The position numbers and the translations under genes are program-made. The notes beneath the pieces are model-generated. The model saw nothing but the letters and a program-made list of their open reading frames with translations. It had not been told where the DNA came from and did not search any database. Positions 3,611 through 12,370 of a stretch of DNA of 64,000 nucleotides are shown piece by piece. The first letter of the stretch is position 1, and every line of letters begins with the position of its first letter. The stretch comes from an uncultured Glaciecola sp. (GTDB lineage Bacteria > Pseudomonadota > Gammaproteobacteria > Enterobacterales > Alteromonadaceae), in assembly GCA_905479945.1 (NCBI GenBank), contig CAJQOP010000085.1, positions 1 to 64,000 on the forward strand, given 5' to 3'.

Positions 3611-3772
3611 TTGTTTAAAATCATGCACTCAGAAAGTGACACTAAGTTATCACAAAACATAGCGTTATTTGAATGGATTATATTGCTACTAAAATAATTA
3701 AGGGATAAATAAGCACATTTATCTCGTTGGTAGTAAACTTTGACAAACATCGATTATCAAGAAGGGCAAATT

Positions 3773-5065
3773 ATGGATATGTACTCTAATTCTTATAGTG
3801 ACATCACGTTATTGTGTATTGACGATGAACAAAATATTTTAAGTTCATTAAAAAGAGAATTGCGTAGCTTTGATTTTAAGCTGCTGACGGCCCAAAGTGG
3901 TGCCGAGGGTTTGTCTATTCTTGATACCGAAAAAGTGGATATAGTAATTTCAGATATGAAGATGCCAGAAATGTCTGGGGTCGAGTTTTTTGAAAATGTT
4001 ACGAAACACTTTCCAAGTGTCTTACGTATTCTGTTGACAGGTTACACTCAAATGGAGTCACTGATAGATGCTGTCAATAAAGGTAATATTCATCGCTATT
4101 TTGAAAAACCTTGGTCGAATAAAGAGTTAACAAGCGCCTTAACCGATTTTGCCGAAAAAATAAGACTAGAACGCCATAATACTCACTTGCAGAAAATGCT
4201 AAAAAAGCAAAACAAAGCACTATTTTCACTCAAGGCTAGTTTAGAAAGTAAAGTTGAGATGCGCACAAAGCAGATTCGAAATGTCTTAGTTAAGCAGCAG
4301 AAAAACGAAATCGCGATGCAAAAGTTACTTTACAATGTAATAAATATAAATCCACATATGGATGGGGGCTTCGCACATGCTGTTAGCCTTATGGCGGGGC
4401 GGGTCGCAAAACATTGCGAGTTAAGCGCAGCCGAAGTTAAGGATATCGAGTTGGCTGGTATATATTGCGATATGGGGTTGTTAGGGCTGGATGTGCAAGC
4501 GCTCTCAAGGCCCTTTGAAACAATGAAATTTATTAATCAACAGGAATACTTGGGTCAGATATATCAAGTAAGCTTAGTGCTTTCCCCTGCGGATGAATTG
4601 CGCAGCATTGAAACGATACTGATTAATCAATTCGAATATATAAATGGTTCTGGTTTTCCGAATGAGTTATTACTTGCTGATATACCTATCGGCTCAAGAA
4701 TATTGGCAATAGCAAGGGATTATTGGCGTTATCGAATGGGTAAAATTGTAGAGAGTAAACTTAGCCATCAAAATGCACTTCGTGAAATTAAGAAGCACAG
4801 TGGCACCCGTTACGATTCGGCCCTCGTTGATATGTTGATTAAAGATTTCGAAATGGCCTCACACGAGCAACCGAGAAGTTTTCTAAACACACCTGACTTG
4901 GAGCCAGGTATGACACTGAGTAGAAGTGTATTTGGGGAAAAGCATATTTTATTGCTAAGCGAAGGGCATGTGCTTACTCACCAGAACATTCAAGGCTTAG
5001 TTAGATATGAAAAGGTACAAAACAGCAAACTTAAAATTTCTGTTGCCCCCATACTGGAGGCTTAG
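3773..5065 (+). CDS. hnoD: Response regulator with degenerate HD-GYP domain (HnoD-like)
   Basis: I chose the ATG at 3773 because AAGGG lies 8 bp upstream. An in-frame TTG at 3740 lacks such a site. Residues 1-120 are a receiver domain (Asp61 in VISDMKMPEM, LLTGYT, EKPW). A coiled coil follows to about residue 180, then an HD-GYP-like domain. The catalytic HD motif (HDIGK in active enzymes) reads YCDMGLLG, the HHE region is replaced by INQFEY, and GTGYP reads GSGFP. Cyclic-di-GMP phosphodiesterase activity is therefore unlikely. A degenerate HD-GYP regulator is also the hallmark of Shewanella HnoD, reported to act allosterically on an EAL enzyme. The 3' end overlaps convergent hnoK by 4 bp. 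Confidence 0.85.
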   Translation: MDMYSNSYSDITLLCIDDEQNILSSLKRELRSFDFKLLTAQSGAEGLSILDTEKVDIVISDMKMPEMSGVEFFENVTKHFPSVLRILLTGYTQMESLIDAVNKGNIHRYFEKPWSNKELTSALTDFAEKIRLERHNTHLQKMLKKQNKALFSLKASLESKVEMRTKQIRNVLVKQQKNEIAMQKLLYNVININPHMDGGFAHAVSLMAGRVAKHCELSAAEVKDIELAGIYCDMGLLGLDVQALSRPFETMKFINQQEYLGQIYQVSLVLSPADELRSIETILINQFEYINGSGFPNELLLADIPIGSRILAIARDYWRYRMGKIVESKLSHQNALREIKKHSGTRYDSALVDMLIKDFEMASHEQPRSFLNTPDLEPGMTLSRSVFGEKHILLLSEGHVLTHQNIQGLVRYEKVQNSKLKISVAPILEA

Positions 5066-6552
5066 TCTACCGTGAACCCAAGCGTAAAGCAGGTACCCTT
5101 GCCCAAGGTTGAGTCAACAACGATACTAATGTGCTGTGCTTCCAAAATTGCATACGTTACGCTCAATCCTAAGCCCGTGCCTTTACCTACCGGTTTGGTT
5201 GTAAAAAATGGATTGAAAATTTGATTCTTAGTTTGCTCATCCATACCGACCCCAGTGTCTTCAACATGAATTAATAAATTTTTTCCACTGAGCTCGCTGT
5301 AGATCTTAAGGGTGCCTCCGTCGGGCATAGAATGTGCCGAATTTATGAGTAAGTTAACAAATACTTGCTGGAGTTGTCCGTAATTACTCAATATGTTTGG
5401 AAGTGTCTTTTCCAACTCATTAATGATTTGGTGTTGGTATTTAAACTCATTTGCGACGACACGCAGGGCAGTACCTACGCACTCATAAATTGATATCTGT
5501 TTGAGATTGTCATCACCAGCGTGTGAGAATGATTTAAGGCCTTCAACAATTTCTTTAACTCTCTCAACACCTTCTAGGTTCGACTTCAGAATGCTCTCTG
5601 CGTCTTCCAACAAAAAATTTAGATCTTGCTTATTGGCTGTATCAGTGAATTCTTGTTTTGACAAACTGCCGGTTAAGTTTACTTTTTCTTCAATCAATTT
5701 AAAGGTGCTTTTAAACTCTTTTAGATAGTCATCAAGCACCTGTAAGTTTGCACGAATATAGCCAATAGGATTATTTATTTCATGGGCAACACCTGCGGCA
5801 AGCTCTCCTAGTGATGCCATCCTCTCGGATTGAATTAATTGTTTTCGCGCGTCTTCAAGATGAGTCGCGGTCTCTTGAAGCTCAATATTTCGGCGAACCG
5901 TTCTTGCATCGGATAAACGTCGTCTAATGCCACTTCGCAAGTGGCCTTTCGCGATTTCCAGCACATTCAGAGCTTCTTCATCAATCAATTCACTTTTTGA
6001 TAGAAAACCAATCCATACCGAGCTATCGTTTCCAAGTTCAAAATTGATGCAAACAATCCATCGAAAACTTTGGCCCTCAATTCTATCATTTTCATCAATA
6101 GGCATGATAAGCCACTCGGGGGGGGCACCCGCTCTTTCTAAGGGAAAATGTTTAAAAAAGAATGATTGAAGTTCGATGTTTTGATCCCAAAAGCCACCAG
6201 AGGACCAGATTAGTGGCTTTGAGTTAGGTTGTACTTTTTGCCCATCAAAAATTGCGTTTATACCGTGTGCAGCATTAAAAAATCTGCCAGTAAGCGCAAC
6301 GGTGCTTTGAAGTATATCAAATAAGGTTAATTCTGAAGAGACGTCGTAGGAGGCCTTAGTAAGATATTCAATTTCAGCGTTTTTCTTCTTTGCATAATCG
6401 AGTGATTTTTTTAGGGATAGGTTAGTTTGATAAATTTCACGTGAGTGCACTTCTAGTTGCTGTTCGGCAATTTGACGAGCTTTTTGTTCTCGTTCAATTT
6501 TACGCTTGAGCAATTGTATGTCTAAAGCTTCTGGGGGAGGATTTTTATCCAA
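5062..6552 (-). CDS. hnoK: H-NOX-associated histidine kinase (HnoK-like)
   Basis: The 496-residue protein has no clear membrane segment. An N-terminal coiled coil (10-65) leads to a GAF-like region (65-210) and a second helix. The HisKA segment LGELAAGVAHEINNP follows, with phospho-acceptor near His257. The ATPase domain shows the N box (NLLINSAHSMPDGG), G1 (VEDTGVGM) and G2 (GKGTGLGLSV). It begins with TTG, 9 bp after GAGG, inside the last codons of the H-NOX gene (8-bp overlap), so the two are translationally coupled. In known systems NO-bound H-NOX inhibits the autophosphorylation of this kinase. Its likely partners are the two receiver proteins encoded just beyond it. Confidence 0.9.
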   Translation of the reverse strand: MDKNPPPEALDIQLLKRKIEREQKARQIAEQQLEVHSREIYQTNLSLKKSLDYAKKKNAEIEYLTKASYDVSSELTLFDILQSTVALTGRFFNAAHGINAIFDGQKVQPNSKPLIWSSGGFWDQNIELQSFFFKHFPLERAGAPPEWLIMPIDENDRIEGQSFRWIVCINFELGNDSSVWIGFLSKSELIDEEALNVLEIAKGHLRSGIRRRLSDARTVRRNIELQETATHLEDARKQLIQSERMASLGELAAGVAHEINNPIGYIRANLQVLDDYLKEFKSTFKLIEEKVNLTGSLSKQEFTDTANKQDLNFLLEDAESILKSNLEGVERVKEIVEGLKSFSHAGDDNLKQISIYECVGTALRVVANEFKYQHQIINELEKTLPNILSNYGQLQQVFVNLLINSAHSMPDGGTLKIYSELSGKNLLIHVEDTGVGMDEQTKNQIFNPFFTTKPVGKGTGLGLSVTYAILEAQHISIVVDSTLGKGTCFTLGFTVD

Positions 6553-7090
6553 CTTTGCTCACCTCAAGCACGCATCTGTCATCGTTGTTATGCTCGCATT
6601 CAACATGCGACACTGTCACCTCTTGATTTACATGCTTAGACAAACCATATATTAAGCCTTCGCAAAAGTAGCAAAGTTTACGAGGCGATTTATAATGAAA
6701 TCTTAAGGTTTTTTCAGATTCAAATAAAAAATCAAATTCAGGCAATAAGCCATCAGGGTTTAATTTTTTGACTTCAACATGGATAACATTTTGTACACCA
6801 TGCAAAAACTCAAATATGTCAACAAAGTCATGTGCACCAGGTGGAGCGATGGCATACAGCTCTGTGAATATCCATTCGCCAAAGGCTTTTTGAGCCTGTG
6901 CGACAGTAATACCTTTTTTATTTCCGATGAGACTTACTAGTGAAAAAAACTCCTGATCATCGTATACGCAGACGGTAGTGTAGATACCATCACTAGCTAA
7001 ATCGGCTTCTTGCAACAATTCATCCCACAGCGCAAGACCCCAAGTTTCTTCTACAAACTCACTTAGCTTTACAAATACAACACCTTTCAA
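6545..7090 (-). CDS. hnoX: H-NOX heme nitric-oxide sensor
   Basis: From the TTG at 7090 (GAGG 8 bp upstream) the product is 181 residues and starts MKGVVF, the normal beginning and length of bacterial H-NOX. The longer frame from ATG 7150 has no ribosome binding site and adds an unrelated leader. The proximal heme ligand is His104 (NVIHVEVKKLNP). The YxSxR heme-propionate motif is Tyr133-Ser135-Arg137. Cys140, His162, Cys165 and Cys173 reproduce the spacing of the structural zinc site of Shewanella H-NOX, shifted by one. It is the first gene of the hnoX-hnoK operon and should sense NO in the cytoplasm. Confidence 0.95.
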   Translation of the reverse strand: MKGVVFVKLSEFVEETWGLALWDELLQEADLASDGIYTTVCVYDDQEFFSLVSLIGNKKGITVAQAQKAFGEWIFTELYAIAPPGAHDFVDIFEFLHGVQNVIHVEVKKLNPDGLLPEFDFLFESEKTLRFHYKSPRKLCYFCEGLIYGLSKHVNQEVTVSHVECEHNNDDRCVLEVSKVG

Positions 7091-7315
7091 TTTTACGGCC
7101 TCGTTATTGGATTGACGTCCGCCTGAGTATAGACGTGGATGATATTTCAATCAATGTTCTTAATGATAAGCTTTTAATGCTTGTGAATTTTAATTTATGT
7201 TACTAATTTAGTTATGTATTTTGCAACTTACCACAGGTGACAAAGGCCTACTAAAAAAGAAATGGCAATAGGTTTTCGGGCCATTTATGTTAGGCTCCGG
7301 TCTGCAGCTATCTCT

Positions 7316-8518
7316 TTAAAACAATCCAAGCAGCTTATAAGCGCCCAAAATAATGATTACCAGTAAAACAATGCCTGCGATAACATTACTGAAGGCTGTA
7401 TTTGTATGGTTTCGCATGATACTTTTTTGATTCATGACATATAATAAAAACAAGACTGAAATCGGCAACAACAATGCATTTGAAGCTTGTGCCAATACAA
7501 TCACAGCTAAAGGTTTGAAGCCCGATATAGCAACCAAAACACCACAAATTAAGATAGTTGTGCATACAATTTTAAATTCTTTGGAATCGAGTTTGACTTC
7601 CCAGCCAAATAAACCGCATATGGCGTATCCTGCAGCAAGAGGAGCGGTTATAGCGCTAGTCAATCCTGCTGAAAATAAGCCCAAGGCAAAAAATAGATTG
7701 GCATAATCACCCAATATCGGCTCAAGTTGGGAAGCTATGTTTCCAGGTGACAGTATCGTATCGGTCAGGTAAAAGGCATTTGCGGCACATGACATAATCG
7801 CAAAGGTGACGATGCCGCCTAAACCAATAGAAGAGAACAATTGTTTTTTATGTGAGGGTAATTGTGCAGCTAAGTCAGTTTCAGAAAGGTTTTCCTCGGT
7901 CGCTTGTTTTGCGCTCAACCCGGCATGCAGGAATAAGTTATACGGGACAATAGTGGTGCCTATAATAGCTAGCAAAAGCGATGTATTGGACAAACCAACT
8001 TGTTTTAGTCCATTAGCTAATGTTGGCGAATCAATGCCTGCTATCAACATAATAGTGATAAATACACCACTCATTAGAGCGACCAAGGTAATCAGTACTT
8101 TTTCTACTAATTGATAGCGGTTACTAATCAATAAACAAAAGGAGATTGCACCTAAACTTAAAGCCCAAATAGTAATGCCACCAGGCATAACATTAGCTAG
8201 TCCTAAAGCTGCACCGGTCAAATTACCTCCTTCGTACGCTGCATTCCCGATACCGATCGCGGCGCACACCAAAATAATAAAAAACCACTTTATATAGTTA
8301 TTTTGACTGATGCCAACGATAGCTTCAGACAATCCTCTTCCTGTAACTAAACCTAAACGTGAGGCCATTTCTTGCAAAATGTAAGTGGCAAATATCGAAA
8401 ACAAAAGAGCCCACACTAAAGCGTAACCTAAGTTGGCGCCTGCCATTGAAGCGGTAGTTACGGTCCCAGGTCCGATAAAAGCAGCAGCGATGATAAGTCC
8501 AGTTTTACCCGATTTCAT
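7316..8518 (-). CDS. Nramp-family divalent metal transporter with altered metal site
   Basis: The 400-residue protein has eleven or so membrane segments and belongs to the Nramp (SLC11) family, recognised by the TM1 region IGPGTVTTASMAGANLGY and the TM6 region TTIVPYNLFLHAG. In canonical Mn/Fe transporters these read DPGN and MPH. Here the metal-binding Asp is Gly, the Asn is Thr, the Met is Val and the His is Tyr (VPYN). It is therefore probably an Nramp relative with another substrate, for example magnesium or another hard cation. It stands alone, divergent from the UPF0149 gene. No Mn or Fur site was recognised upstream. Confidence 0.85.
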   Translation of the reverse strand: MKSGKTGLIIAAAFIGPGTVTTASMAGANLGYALVWALLFSIFATYILQEMASRLGLVTGRGLSEAIVGISQNNYIKWFFIILVCAAIGIGNAAYEGGNLTGAALGLANVMPGGITIWALSLGAISFCLLISNRYQLVEKVLITLVALMSGVFITIMLIAGIDSPTLANGLKQVGLSNTSLLLAIIGTTIVPYNLFLHAGLSAKQATEENLSETDLAAQLPSHKKQLFSSIGLGGIVTFAIMSCAANAFYLTDTILSPGNIASQLEPILGDYANLFFALGLFSAGLTSAITAPLAAGYAICGLFGWEVKLDSKEFKIVCTTILICGVLVAISGFKPLAVIVLAQASNALLLPISVLFLLYVMNQKSIMRNHTNTAFSNVIAGIVLLVIIILGAYKLLGLF

Positions 8519-8623
8519 GTTGAATAAACTCCAAAACTGATTTTTATAGTTGTTATTCGTTTTGATTTACCTCTATCATCTACCGCATTGTTTGAAATCG
8601 CAACTTTAAGCTTTCTATCATCT

Positions 8624-9265
8624 ATGAATTTACTTCAAATATATCAAAAACCTAGCAACGCGGTTTTGCTCCATTCTCGGTACTACGTAGAGGGCGCGTT
8701 ATTTGGAGCCGGTGTTTCGCCCGAAATTCCGATGCCCGATGTTTGGTTGCCTTGGGCTATAAAGCATACTGGTAAAATCAAAAACAATCGTCAGGCAGAT
8801 GAAATAACGGATGCGCTATTTGATTATTTCAAACATTGTTTACAGCTTATGAAAGACAACAAACAGGCTTTGCCGGACTATTGTGAATTTGAACAAGACG
8901 CTGATAACGGCAATAGTGATTCGCCGCTTTCGCAGTGGCTGCAAGGTGTTTTAATGGCACATTCTAGTATGGAGTCGGTGTGGCTAAACGCATGGAAGCT
9001 GATGCAAAATAAAGCGCCTGATAAAGCCCCAGCATTGGCTAAAAAACTAAAGCATAGCCTGAGTATGTTTACGACTTTTGCTGATATACCTTTGGCAAAA
9101 GAGCAGGCATTAAAAAGGGGGCAGGGGGATGACTTTCAGAAAAACCTCGCCAATATTGCAAAGTCACTCCCTGACGCACTAAATACCTATGTTGAAGTTT
9201 CTGGAAAGCTAGCTGAGTATTTGCCAAATCAGTTTGAGACTTTTGTGCAAAAGCCCGTGACATAA
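8624..9265 (+). CDS. UPF0149 (YecA/YgfB-like) family protein
   Basis: The product is about 213 residues from ATG 8624, preferred over an in-frame TTG at 8588 because homologues begin close to the first conserved helix. The segment YYVEGALFGAGVSPEIPMPDVWLPW matches the family pattern of a small residue-rich loop followed by a proline-rich turn and W-LP. A later segment (LSQWLQGVLMAH) matches the family's second helix pair. It lacks the C-terminal SEC-type zinc motif of YecA. Function in the family is poorly defined. It is transcribed alone between divergent Nramp and convergent hemJ genes. Confidence 0.65.
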   Translation: MNLLQIYQKPSNAVLLHSRYYVEGALFGAGVSPEIPMPDVWLPWAIKHTGKIKNNRQADEITDALFDYFKHCLQLMKDNKQALPDYCEFEQDADNGNSDSPLSQWLQGVLMAHSSMESVWLNAWKLMQNKAPDKAPALAKKLKHSLSMFTTFADIPLAKEQALKRGQGDDFQKNLANIAKSLPDALNTYVEVSGKLAEYLPNQFETFVQKPVT

Positions 9266-9351
9266 AATAGTCGGACTATAGCAAGTGCTAATGAGGCTGT
9301 CGGCCACTGCTTGATGCCTTGCTGAGGCCTTATAATTGCGAATAAGGTTAA

Positions 9352-9780
9352 TTAAAACGGTTTAACAATAGCCAAAACCACAATTGCTAATAATACTAAA
9401 ACAGGAAGTTCGTTGATCATTCTGTAAAAGCGAGGGCTTTTGGTGTTTTTATCTTCGGCAAATACCTTAACTAAATAATATAGATAGAAGTGATAAACGT
9501 AAAATAAAGCCACTAATACTAGCTTTGCGTGGAGCCATGCTGAGGCTTTCAACCAATCAGTGCCGTATTGATACATAATCAATACGCCCAAGATTAATGT
9601 CAACAATGCAAAAGGGGTCACGAAAAACCATAAGCGTCGCTCCATAACCTTGAATTGGTTTTTGGTTTCTTGATGCTGACTTTCAGCATGATAAACAAAC
9701 AATCTAGGGAGATAAAAAATACCCGCCATCCACGCCACCATAAAAAACACATGAAAGGCTTTTAGCCACAAAATACTCAT
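9352..9780 (-). CDS. hemJ: Protoporphyrinogen oxidase HemJ
   Basis: The 142-residue membrane protein has four predicted helices and matches HemJ (UPF0093): WLKAFHVFFMVAWMAGIFYLPRLFVYH at the start, with the conserved His, and a final FYRMINELPVLVLLAIVVLAIVKP region. HemJ oxidises protoporphyrinogen IX in heme synthesis in bacteria without HemG or HemY. It lies 22 bp downstream of the CLC gene on the same strand, so the two may share a transcript. hemB elsewhere in this window belongs to the same pathway. Confidence 0.9.
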   Translation of the reverse strand: MSILWLKAFHVFFMVAWMAGIFYLPRLFVYHAESQHQETKNQFKVMERRLWFFVTPFALLTLILGVLIMYQYGTDWLKASAWLHAKLVLVALFYVYHFYLYYLVKVFAEDKNTKSPRFYRMINELPVLVLLAIVVLAIVKPF

Positions 9781-9802
9781 TTTTCTTACCCTAGTTTAGT
9801 TG

Positions 9803-11509
9803 TTAGTGTTGCTGCCGAAGAAGGTAACTATGCAGCATATTCCAAGTGATTATACCGATTATTTTAGGTTTTCCATGCTCAAAAACATGCTCGTCGTGCG
9901 CTAATGCTTCAAATATATAAACCGCGCCTTGTCTCTTTTTATGCAAGGTTTCATAAACCTCGGCCATAGTAGATTGATCACTAAGCCCCTCTATTTGATG
10001 AATCGAAAGCGGCAGTACGCCTTCCTGCAGACTAACGTCCATCGCAACAATTTTATACTGCCGGTCATTTTCAAATATACGTTCTTGCAGGACTAAGTGC
10101 TTGGGATTTGCTTGCAAATATTCATATAGTGCTTGCTTGGGGGCATCAATGAAATGTTTAAACTCAGTTTGCATTGTAGCCATTACGCCAGTCTCTTGCA
10201 GTACATCACGAATAGAGGATGTGGTATATGCCAGCTTTTGAAACTCCAACTGTTGGATAAATATGGAGCGGTTATTACAAAGCTGTTTAGAAGTTACGTA
10301 GGCACTTACAATAACGATTATTGCTGGTAAAATCACCTGTGAACTAGCCGATAATTCCATTACGGCGGAGAGTGCCGCCATAGGAGCATGAAGCACCGCG
10401 GCTAACATTCCGGCTAAACCAAGCAATGCAAATGTAGATGTCATTTCGCTATCGCCACTGATGCTATAAAGCGGCTGAAGTAAAATGACGCCTGCCAACA
10501 TACCGATAACCATAACCGCACCAATAATCCCGCCCGGAACGCCCAAACCTATTGCTGCAATCGCCAAAATAAATTTTAATGCAAATAGTATTAACAACAT
10601 ACTTAACTGTGGGTCGTTGGCGAATAATATTTCCATTGTTACAAATTGAGCACCCAGTGCTTCGGGTATGAAATAGCCTACAAAGCCTGTTATTGCTGCA
10701 GCTAGTAGTAAGCGAATAATCATATTTACATCGCGAAAAAGCTTCAATACCAACATTAGTTGCTGGTTAAACAATGCAGCGAGTAGCCCTAAAACAATTC
10801 CACATAGCACTAAGTACGGAAGTAATGCTGTATCAAGTGAATGGAAATCAAGAAAAGTAAGTTCGTTTTCATTGCCAAAAACAATGCGGGTTAATACTGA
10901 GCCGCATGCAGCCGCCAGCATAATAGGGATAAAAACATGTACTCGATAATGGCGCAAAACCACTTCCATTACAAAAATAACAGCGGCAAAGGGCGTATTG
11001 AAAGCGGCTGAAATGCCGGCAGCAATGCCACAACCAGTAAGAATGCGTAAACTATTGAAGGGGAGTCTAAACCATTGACCTAAAAGATGACTGCTAGCCG
11101 CTGCAAGGTGAACTGTAGGGCCTTCTTTACCGACAACAAAGCCGCCCGCTAAGGAGAAAATGCCACCAAAAAATTGGTTTATTGATGTCCCTAGTGGGAT
11201 ATGGCCGTAACGGGTCTTAACGCGATGAATAACAAATGGAATGCCCATTCGGTAATGTTGTAAACCGGTTATCTTGGCGACAATAAGAATCAAAACAATT
11301 GCGACGACGGGCAAGAATAGTAGGAACATACTTTCAATTTCAGCGTACTGCGCGACGCCTCCCAGTAGCGCTTTTTGTATAAATTCCCAACTTAACCTGA
11401 ATATAATAATGACCGTAGCTGCACAAGCACCAGCCACTATGCCCAGCAGGCATAGTTGAACTGAGGTTCTTGGATGTGAAACTTCTCGTCTTAGCGAGTG
11501 CAAAAACAT
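9803..11509 (-). CDS. CLC-family chloride channel/transporter with C-terminal CBS region
   Basis: The 568-residue protein has an N-terminal CLC membrane domain (to about residue 420) and a cytoplasmic tail resembling a CBS pair. The selectivity motifs are visible: MGIPFV for GSGIP, GKEGPTVH (the gating external glutamate) and GVPGGIIG. The internal proton glutamate of E. coli ClC-ec1 (second E of FIIEEM) is Val here (FVMEVV), as in CLC channels such as ClC-1. It may therefore conduct chloride passively rather than exchange it for protons. The tail carries nucleotide-type CBS features but no clear ligand. It lies upstream of hemJ. Confidence 0.9.
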   Translation of the reverse strand: MFLHSLRREVSHPRTSVQLCLLGIVAGACAATVIIIFRLSWEFIQKALLGGVAQYAEIESMFLLFLPVVAIVLILIVAKITGLQHYRMGIPFVIHRVKTRYGHIPLGTSINQFFGGIFSLAGGFVVGKEGPTVHLAAASSHLLGQWFRLPFNSLRILTGCGIAAGISAAFNTPFAAVIFVMEVVLRHYRVHVFIPIMLAAACGSVLTRIVFGNENELTFLDFHSLDTALLPYLVLCGIVLGLLAALFNQQLMLVLKLFRDVNMIIRLLLAAAITGFVGYFIPEALGAQFVTMEILFANDPQLSMLLILFALKFILAIAAIGLGVPGGIIGAVMVIGMLAGVILLQPLYSISGDSEMTSTFALLGLAGMLAAVLHAPMAALSAVMELSASSQVILPAIIVIVSAYVTSKQLCNNRSIFIQQLEFQKLAYTTSSIRDVLQETGVMATMQTEFKHFIDAPKQALYEYLQANPKHLVLQERIFENDRQYKIVAMDVSLQEGVLPLSIHQIEGLSDQSTMAEVYETLHKKRQGAVYIFEALAHDEHVFEHGKPKIIGIITWNMLHSYLLRQQH

Positions 11510-11647
11510 ATTGTATATAGGTTTATACTAATTAAGATTAAGACTATCATAGCGTTTTGTGCAGGTGCTTACTACCTGTGAATTGGTAGCTATCCCAAAA
11601 TAAATTGCTATCCTAATTGCTTGTTATTAACAAGAATGTCTTAAAAT

Positions 11648-12370
11648 GTGGAGTTTGCATTGAAATTTAAAGAACTGCGGGGCCAACTCGGTTTCGTAAG
11701 ATTTTATTTAGTCGCACTTTTTATCTTGTCTTGCGTTTTTTATGCCGGACACGAATTTGCGAATAAACGGAACCACTTACTCTCACTTGAAGTAGATGTG
11801 ATGAAAAGCAGCATTGATAATGTCTCGGCTGAGAATCAATCGCTTAACTCAGAACTCAATGTTAAGAAAGTAGAGCTTGAGGTGGCGAGTATTGCTAATG
11901 AGCAAGCGCAAATTTCATTTAAGAATTTTATGCAGCAAGAAGCTGAGTTGCGCGAGCAAATTAGTTTTTATCAAAAAGTAATGGCGCCTGAACTAACGCA
12001 AGATGGATTCGTTGTTGAAAGTGTAGAAGTAGTGCCAACTGAGAGTACCAATAATTTCGCAATAAAAGTCATGATGCTGCAACGAGAAAATATTAAGGCG
12101 ATAATCAAAGGAACGTTAAAAATCACGCTGCGCGGCAGTCAAAACCAAGTTCCCATGCAATATGATTTGAAAACGCTTTTGGATGACAAAGAACAAAAGA
12201 CAACGTTTTCGTTTAAATACTTTCAAGTAACTGAATTTCGCGTCACTTTGCCAGATTATTTCATTCCAGAGCAGATTGAGATTAATACCGACGTTTACAA
12301 GTTCAAGAGAAAGCGCGGTTCTTATGCCCGAACCATCGCGTGGAAAGACGCTTACAGTGAATCTGATTGA
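11648..12370 (+). CDS. Membrane-anchored coiled-coil protein (DUF6776-like)
   Basis: This 240-residue protein has one N-terminal membrane helix (residues 17-35, FVRFYLVALFILSCVFYAG), a coiled coil from about 45 to 115, and a C-terminal beta-rich domain ending in basic residues. The layout suits a bitopic inner-membrane protein with a periplasmic domain. The start is either GTG 11648 or TTG 11660. GGAG lies 6 bp before the TTG, which makes that start attractive. It precedes erpA by 79 bp. I recognise the architecture as the DUF6776 type seen in Alteromonadales, but no function is known to me. Confidence 0.75.
   Translation: MEFALKFKELRGQLGFVRFYLVALFILSCVFYAGHEFANKRNHLLSLEVDVMKSSIDNVSAENQSLNSELNVKKVELEVASIANEQAQISFKNFMQQEAELREQISFYQKVMAPELTQDGFVVESVEVVPTESTNNFAIKVMMLQRENIKAIIKGTLKITLRGSQNQVPMQYDLKTLLDDKEQKTTFSFKYFQVTEFRVTLPDYFIPEQIEINTDVYKFKRKRGSYARTIAWKDAYSESD

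Follow-up and report, generated by a model that had tools for sequence, protein, structure and literature searches.

A candidate 5-oxoproline carrier among Nramp-related proteins that lack the canonical metal ligands

What does an Nramp-related transporter carry when the residues that hold the metal have been replaced? The question is raised by a gene in a 64,000-nucleotide stretch of DNA from an uncultured Glaciecola sp. (contig CAJQOP010000085.1), the whole of which we call the window. An earlier note on this DNA had read GPGT for DPGN in transmembrane helix 1 (TM1) and VPYN for MPHN in TM6, had concluded that the Asp, Asn and Met that bind Mn2+ or Fe2+ are all replaced, and had predicted a different substrate, as for the magnesium-transporting Nramp relatives. 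Because the metal ligands are lost and many bacterial and archaeal relatives of the gene lie beside enzymes that degrade pyroglutamate, we consider that the encoded protein (our query) is probably a carrier of 5-oxo-L-proline (pyroglutamate), or of a very similar small lactam, and not of a metal.

The gene and its binding pocket

The reading frame begins with ATG and encodes a 400-residue product that belongs to the Pfam Nramp family (PF01566; 258 bits against a gathering score of 29.8, covering positions 1-356 of the 357 in the model). It passes the broad NCBIfam 'Nramp_1' model (70.8 against 50 bits) and falls below the cut-offs of the MntH model (141.7 against 430 bits) and the Nramp subfamily model (80.6 against 272.5 bits). 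In the annotated records that we examined, genes of its clade are labelled 'Nramp family divalent metal transporter'; we think it more likely that they carry pyroglutamate. The features discussed below are collected in Table 1.

Table 1. Position of the transporter gene and its motifs in the window, with examples of a second family from other genomes
Feature	Position	Strand	Remark
Nramp-related transporter gene, GPGT/VPYN clade	7316..8518	(-)	predicted 5-oxoproline transporter; Slc11 'orphan outgroup' signature
TM1 unwound segment G16-P17-G18-T19	8462..8473	(-)	replaces DPGN
TM3 G91...Y95...G98-N99..G102...G106	8201..8248	(-)	matches the orphan-outgroup set G-Y-G-N-G-G of PMC10606218
TM6 unwound segment T188-T189-I190-V191-P192-Y193-N194	7937..7957	(-)	D. 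radiodurans Nramp has A-T-V-M-P-H-V
TM10 Q344-A-S-N347	7478..7489	(-)	
GPGF family examples, L263-L283 (Bacillota)	e.g. L264:5355-6572		

The gene stands alone, with a divergent UPF0149 gene upstream and, downstream on the same strand, an H-NOX gene and a histidine kinase gene. The UPF0149, HemJ and CLC clusters occur together, as they do in the window, in 16 of the relatives' 80 loci (the best 80 of at least 573); a gene of a PatB-family C-S lyase cluster, so named from its scanned representative, is found in 18 of the same best 80, usually convergent to the transporter and just downstream of it, and many of these loci are from Alteromonadaceae (for example L065, L067 and L071). At 3740-7150 of the window the H-NOX protein, the histidine kinase and a NosR-type HD response regulator adjoin one another and probably form a nitric-oxide/c-di-GMP signalling set.

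An AlphaFold2 model built from 52 sequences (pLDDT 92.0, pTM 0.90) predicts an Nramp structure of the LeuT fold. Its best match in fold searches is the DraNramp entry (Z 49.4, rmsd 2.2 Å over 381 residues), and EleNRMT reaches Z 45.6. Amino-acid carriers of the same fold lie well below the Nramps (AdiC, Z 31.0; ApcT, Z 29.8); LAT also comes after them, as does, in one search only, the hydantoin carrier Mhp1.

Both motif replacements (TM1, AAFIGPGTVTTAS; TM6, IIGTTIVPYNLFLH) are confirmed by translation, by alignment and by a clade of 124 unique sequences. When the query is aligned to the D. radiodurans protein—the roles of whose metal-site residues are in part those given in PMC8806188—Gly16 stands in place of Asp, Thr19 of Asn, Thr188 of Ala and Val191 of Met. 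The earlier list of lost ligands is accurate. The first TM6 His is replaced too, by Tyr193, and the list can be extended by one entry: the TM3 Glu (E96) is not fixed in the clade (E in 92, Q in 31 and A in 1 of 124). The second TM6 His (H198) is retained, as it is in 118 of the 124 clade sequences. The TM10 Gln is kept from Nramps, and the TM10 Asn is common to many NRMT-like rows and to the GPGF family described below. Throughout the clade, the Asp site (position 16) is Gly (124/124); among the 60 non-clade Nramps readable at this position, 54 have Asp and 6 have Gly. Val191 is invariant, and no acidic residue attains 97% conservation. Since Gly16 and Val191 are fixed in this way and orthologues within the genus are up to 81% identical to the query, the motif is not a product of chance or sequencing error.

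This pocket bears directly on the suggestion of a magnesium transporter of the NRMT kind. EleNRMT transports Mg2+ and Mn2+, and the binding-site signature of NRMTs is DxxG-TxxA/T; mutation of its Asp strongly compromises EleNRMT transport, and the residue is described as conserved in every SLC11 protein (PMC8806188). The query resembles NRMTs in Thr188, which corresponds to the NRMT Thr, and in having the Met likewise replaced, but its clade reads GxxT-TxxV. Because NRMTs keep the TM1 Asp that the clade lacks, the analogy does not fit. Moreover, the clade stands apart from rows with NRMT-like motifs in both trees described below, and no M-box was found at positions 4000-12000 of the window or in the loci of 11 relatives. 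On signature and trees we reject an NRMT identity, and we regard Mg2+ transport of this kind as highly improbable. The prediction of a different substrate stands; the magnesium analogy that came with it does not.

The Rfam scan gave no family above chance at positions 4000-12000 of the window (neither M-box nor yybP-ykoY; one match, with E 0.92, lay below its gathering score) and no metal riboswitch in the 11 relatives' loci, where the sole match was an unrelated L10 leader. An association of Nramps with ppGpp/ykkC riboswitches found no support either: this region and these 11 loci gave no such match above the gathering score, and no paper in the literature searched joins ykkC, ppGpp and NRAMP.

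The clade and its oxoprolinase neighbours

The first clade alignment held 24 gammaproteobacterial sequences. The full set of 124 comes from Gammaproteobacteria, Bacteroidota, SAR324, Bacillota, Actinomycetota and Halobacteria (groups assigned from record titles or samples), after removal of rows that had more than 80 gaps or were identical. Its members are 41-81% identical and score 420-574 bits with the clade profile, against 93-306 bits for 73 other Nramps. In two maximum-likelihood trees the clade forms one side of a branch (SH-aLRT 91 in the first, 94 in the second). The first tree kept 96 of the 124 clade rows, those more than 80% identical having been removed, and 25 of the 73 others, from which rows more than 50% identical or gappy were removed; the second used 25 hand-picked clade rows, 22 of the 25 others (the three longest were excluded) and 10 of 12 GPGF rows.

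The query (row L001) lies deep within the clade. Its branch in the first tree has a support of 99 and comprises 57 rows, 51 of them gammaproteobacterial on the same basis, the rest a sister group of six: the pxp-linked L092, the hyuAB-linked Actinomycetota L194, L196 and L197 (the same as L233, L235 and L236), L199, which sits on a short contig, and Salinisphaera L120, which stands beside the hyuAB-linked L196.

Two proteins were noted near the edge of the clade. One, encoded on a Qipengyuania citrea plasmid (L301:3965-5275) and lying outside the 124-sequence set, has no oxoprolinase neighbour. It contains GPGT and VPYN in full yet scores only 294 bits with the clade profile, which makes the boundary of the clade less clear-cut than the set of 124 implies. 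The other, from Bacillota (L231/L171, genome G395), is an intermediate outside the clade: it scores 306 bits, reads GTGT in TM1 and TVPYN in TM6 and is unlinked, and its genome has a GPGF gene beside pxp genes.

We searched the flanks of the relatives' loci with profiles for PxpA, PxpB, PxpC, HyuA and HyuB, and counted genes within 6 kb as linked. Among 80 genome-contig loci (the best 80 of at least 573 relatives), 20 have pxp genes, usually in the order transporter-pxpA-pxpB-pxpC with all four on the same strand (as in Bacteroidota, Kangiella, Marinicella and others); 2 have, directly downstream, a gene for a 1252-residue fused hydantoinase A/B; and 58, mostly from Gammaproteobacteria, have no such neighbours. 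For the fused hydantoinase the best NCBIfam models are caprolactamase and acetophenone carboxylase, both far below cut-off. The query's own gene adjoins no pxp or hyu gene; encoding with pxpABC is a trait of part of its clade.

The linkage recurs in several phyla. In 249 sampled Bacillota genomes pxp genes lie near all 8 clade loci, and 198 sampled Actinomycetota genomes yielded 11 clade loci, of which 5 have pxp genes, 4 have hyuA-hyuB and 2 lie on short contigs (6.4 and 8.6 kb). Two loci are counted in two sets (L117=L223, Tepidanaerobacteraceae; L092=L232, Streptomyces). A plasmid collection gave 239 matches; among the 40 listed, 24 show 40-49% identity, 23 of them haloarchaeal and 1 from Pseudoalteromonas. 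Eleven of the 40 were examined at the locus: 8 haloarchaeal ones, the Pseudoalteromonas locus H1, and H25 and H26. In 7 of the 8 haloarchaeal loci examined (of the 23 among the matches listed) hyuA is directly downstream, with hyuB visible after it in 6; locus H24 has neither. All 8 haloarchaeal proteins carry AFIGPGT and score 416-469 bits. No oxoprolinase-family gene lies near the Pseudoalteromonas plasmid locus (H1). As a control, we took the 20 Nramp loci outside the clade that scored next best in these two samples, of Bacillota and of Actinomycetota. None has any of the five genes within about 5.5 kb, as far as the contigs extend; the count leaves aside the GPGF family, itself a pxp-linked family of non-clade Nramps.

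PxpABC is described as showing no similarity in sequence to the eukaryotic-type oxoprolinase (PMC13274462). Linkage of one transporter clade to two unrelated oxoprolinase types thus points to a shared substrate class as the common factor. For the query's branch the simplest account is an oxoprolinase-linked transporter in the ancestry of the Gammaproteobacteria whose linkage was later lost, a direction of change that we infer. Since most of the 58 unlinked loci are gammaproteobacterial, a functional shift in that branch is possible.

The query's own genome nevertheless encodes intact pxpA, pxpB and pxpC, in overlapping reading frames on another contig (L149:6874-9529); its PxpA passes the NCBIfam cut-off, and PxpB and PxpC pass Pfam's only. 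Among 59 relatives, the clade transporter and PxpA occur together in 27 genomes and the transporter without PxpA in none, and the 32 genomes without the transporter divide into 16 with PxpA and 16 without (Fisher p 1e-5, not corrected for kinship). PxpA is present in 40 of 44 clade-bearing genomes hand-chosen from the 80 loci (the best 80 of at least 573). The remaining four (L107, L120, L122 and L126) all have Hydantoinase_B (PF02538), which 16 of 60 genomes possess when the window's own is counted with those of its relatives. In the Bacillota sample, PxpA is encoded by 78 of the 249 genomes and by every one of the 8 with a clade gene.

The proposed substrate and its rivals

The altered pocket and the 5-oxoprolinase-family neighbours together support the prediction of a different substrate. 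We suggest that the query, within the Nramp superfamily, acts as a secondary transporter of LeuT fold, no longer binds metal and would instead move 5-oxoproline across the inner membrane. Uptake is the expected direction: imported 5-oxoproline would have its ring opened by the ATP-dependent PxpABC, encoded elsewhere in the genome, to give glutamate. Amino-acid carriers of the same fold hold the substrate carboxylate by backbone amides of TM1. In the query the backbone amides of the TM1 GPG may hold the carboxylate of 5-oxoproline, with N99, T188, Y193 and N347 placed around the lactam; these residues and Thr19 would then bind carboxylate and lactam where canonical Nramps hold Mn2+. In the literature searched, to which most subscription papers do not belong, we found no transport assay for any member of the GPGT/VPYN clade and no publication joining the clade to 5-oxoproline.

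A second, far more distant PF01566 family, GPGF, occurs in pxp operons of Bacillota and has AIGPGF in TM1 and GGTVGGY in TM6. It is present in 22 of the 249 Bacillota genomes, all 22 with PxpA and none with the clade gene, and a pxp gene lies in the fetched stretch around the GPGF gene in 18 of 18 genomes. The 8 GPGT and 22 GPGF genomes of Bacillota share none; as about two shared genomes are expected, this is not significant by itself. In one Bacillota locus the order is pxpA, GPGF gene, D-glutamate cyclase, pxpB, pxpC and IclR regulator, which we take to be that of B. subtilis ycsF-ycsG-ycsI-kipI-kipA-kipR. Judged by this operon order and by the low identity between the query and the YcsG integrative model (18-19% in fold searches), B. 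subtilis YcsG and C. glutamicum PxpT are probably of the GPGF type. For the same reasons we dropped the idea that the query is a simple YcsG/PxpT orthologue.

GPGF-type proteins share about 22-29% identity with the clade, and in the second tree a branch of 4.6 changes per site sets them apart; with a branch of this length, a sister relation of GPGT and GPGF is 'not rejected' (p-AU 0.87). The GPGF profile gives a median of 55 bits on GPGT sequences (n=124, 17.7-87.2) and of 19 bits on other Nramps (n=72, -0.5-48.8), two ranges that overlap. When the two profiles are aligned (98.9% probability), the GPG, the TM3 G-N, the TM6 Tyr, the TM8 Thr-Ser and the TM10 Asn coincide. An exception to the oxoprolinase link of this family is the GPGF gene of an order-level relative (L290:5702-6931, G044), which lies between a sulfate permease gene and a LacI-type regulator gene in a genome without PxpA and has no oxoprolinase neighbours.

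The gene pxpT of C. glutamicum, whose product is 50% identical to YcsG, is required for growth on 5-oxoproline; YcsG is cited as needed for 5-oxoproline use too, and metal transport by PxpT is not excluded by the authors (PMC13274462). Because GPGF proteins occupy this slot of the pxp operon and PxpT, their probable member, is needed for growth on 5-oxoproline, we count the family in favour of a 5-oxoproline substrate for the GPGT clade.

Might the substrate be another small amide or amino acid—hydantoin, proline, glutamine or lactams broadly, with 5-oxoproline as one of several—or might the protein export 5-oxoproline? The appearance of AdiC, ApcT, LAT and Mhp1 behind the Nramps in the fold searches would suit such a substrate, but a common fold is no proof of function. 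Similarly, the hydantoinase A/B family includes, by its NCBIfam names, enzymes with other substrates, but the commonest such neighbour is PxpABC, which is described as an ATP-dependent 5-oxoprolinase, and the growth data for the GPGF family concern the use of external 5-oxoproline (PMC13274462). These alternatives appear unlikely.

The strongest facts against a 5-oxoproline carrier concern Mn2+ and come from two proteins that may lie outside the clade. B. subtilis YcsG is reported as an Mn2+ importer: its overexpression raises cellular Mn and MntR binds its promoter, and the authors remark that polarity on pxpBC could account for the earlier ycsG phenotype on 5-oxoproline (PMC10448178). MumT of A. 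baumannii is an NRAMP whose operon also carries genes for urea carboxylase and allophanate hydrolase; it is reported to be needed for Mn accumulation, and deletion of mumT lowers cellular Mn (PMC5050338). Could the query likewise import Mn2+ through an unusual site, as YcsG/MntG and MumT are claimed to do, with oxoprolinase neighbours that would need the metal? Its predicted fold is that of an Nramp, its fold similarity is highest to metal transporters, and it is the sole PF01566 gene found in its own assembly (90.5% complete). The pocket can be read both ways: H198 and, in most members, the TM3 Glu are retained in the clade, but Asp, Asn, Met and the first His are gone, the TM3 Glu gives way to Gln in the 31 members noted above, and replacement of the Asp is what strongly compromises EleNRMT. 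The scan of 11 relatives' loci for metal riboswitches, with its null result, and the apparent place of YcsG in the GPGF family, not in the query's clade, also argue against Mn2+. We judge an Mn2+ importer to be distinctly unlikely and retain 5-oxoproline as the probable substrate.

How might metal and lactam carriers be related? We offer tentatively, and with more doubt than conviction, that Nramp metal transporters descend from common ancestors with two groups of lactam carriers, GPGT and GPGF, which are old, diverged separately and both have a TM1 GPG at the Asp site. Metal transport would then be derived, or one of two ancient specialisations, and the published effects of ycsG and mumT on Mn2+ would be indirect. 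If this is true, the Slc11 'orphan outgroup' gains a function and a substrate, the origin of metal selectivity becomes testable by swapping a few TM1 and TM6 residues, and the dispute over YcsG as an importer of 5-oxoproline or of Mn2+ is seen in another light.

Comparison with known systems

Canonical MntH/Nramp proteins (DraNramp, BfraNramp) have their fold in common with the query, at 21-24% identity. They have the Asp and Asn of TM1 and the Met and first His of TM6, all four of which are replaced in the query, which reads GPGT and VPY where the canonical Slc11/Nramp signature has DPGN and MPH. NRMTs (EleNRMT, C. acetobutylicum NrmT) share with the query PF01566, the LeuT fold and a Thr at the TM6 Ala position, but keep the TM1 Asp where the query's clade has Gly. 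On a Serratia marcescens IncHI2A plasmid (L300:3920-6632) lies another, different Nramp-related gene, with about 30% identity (141 bits); the gene after it is annotated 'magnesium transporter', and the two recall the pairs of NrmT and an MgtE fragment in PMC4072509.

The 'orphan outgroup' of Slc11 described by Cellier has the TM3 G-Y-G-N-G-G set and the TM6 T, V and Y residues of the query (PMC10606218). On the residues listed (Y95, N99, G91/G98/G102/G106, T188, V191 and Y193), the query's clade bears the orphan-outgroup signature. The outgroup serves as a phylogenetic reference in PMC10606218, and no substrate is named in the portions of that paper drawn on here. PF01566 takes in Slc11, this kind of outgroup and NRMT (PMC9606685), and a 2026 preprint on Nramp evolution calls all such proteins 'Nramp-related proteins', with diverse residues replacing DPGN and MPH (PMC12873925).

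YcsG and PxpT are PF01566-related carriers encoded with pxpABC, as are part of the query's clade. Over 397 alignment columns the query and the YcsG integrative model are 19% identical, which does not exceed the query's identity to DraNramp and compares with 41-81% within its own clade; by this comparison it falls outside the YcsG family, and it shares with YcsG and PxpT the company of pxp genes among its relatives.
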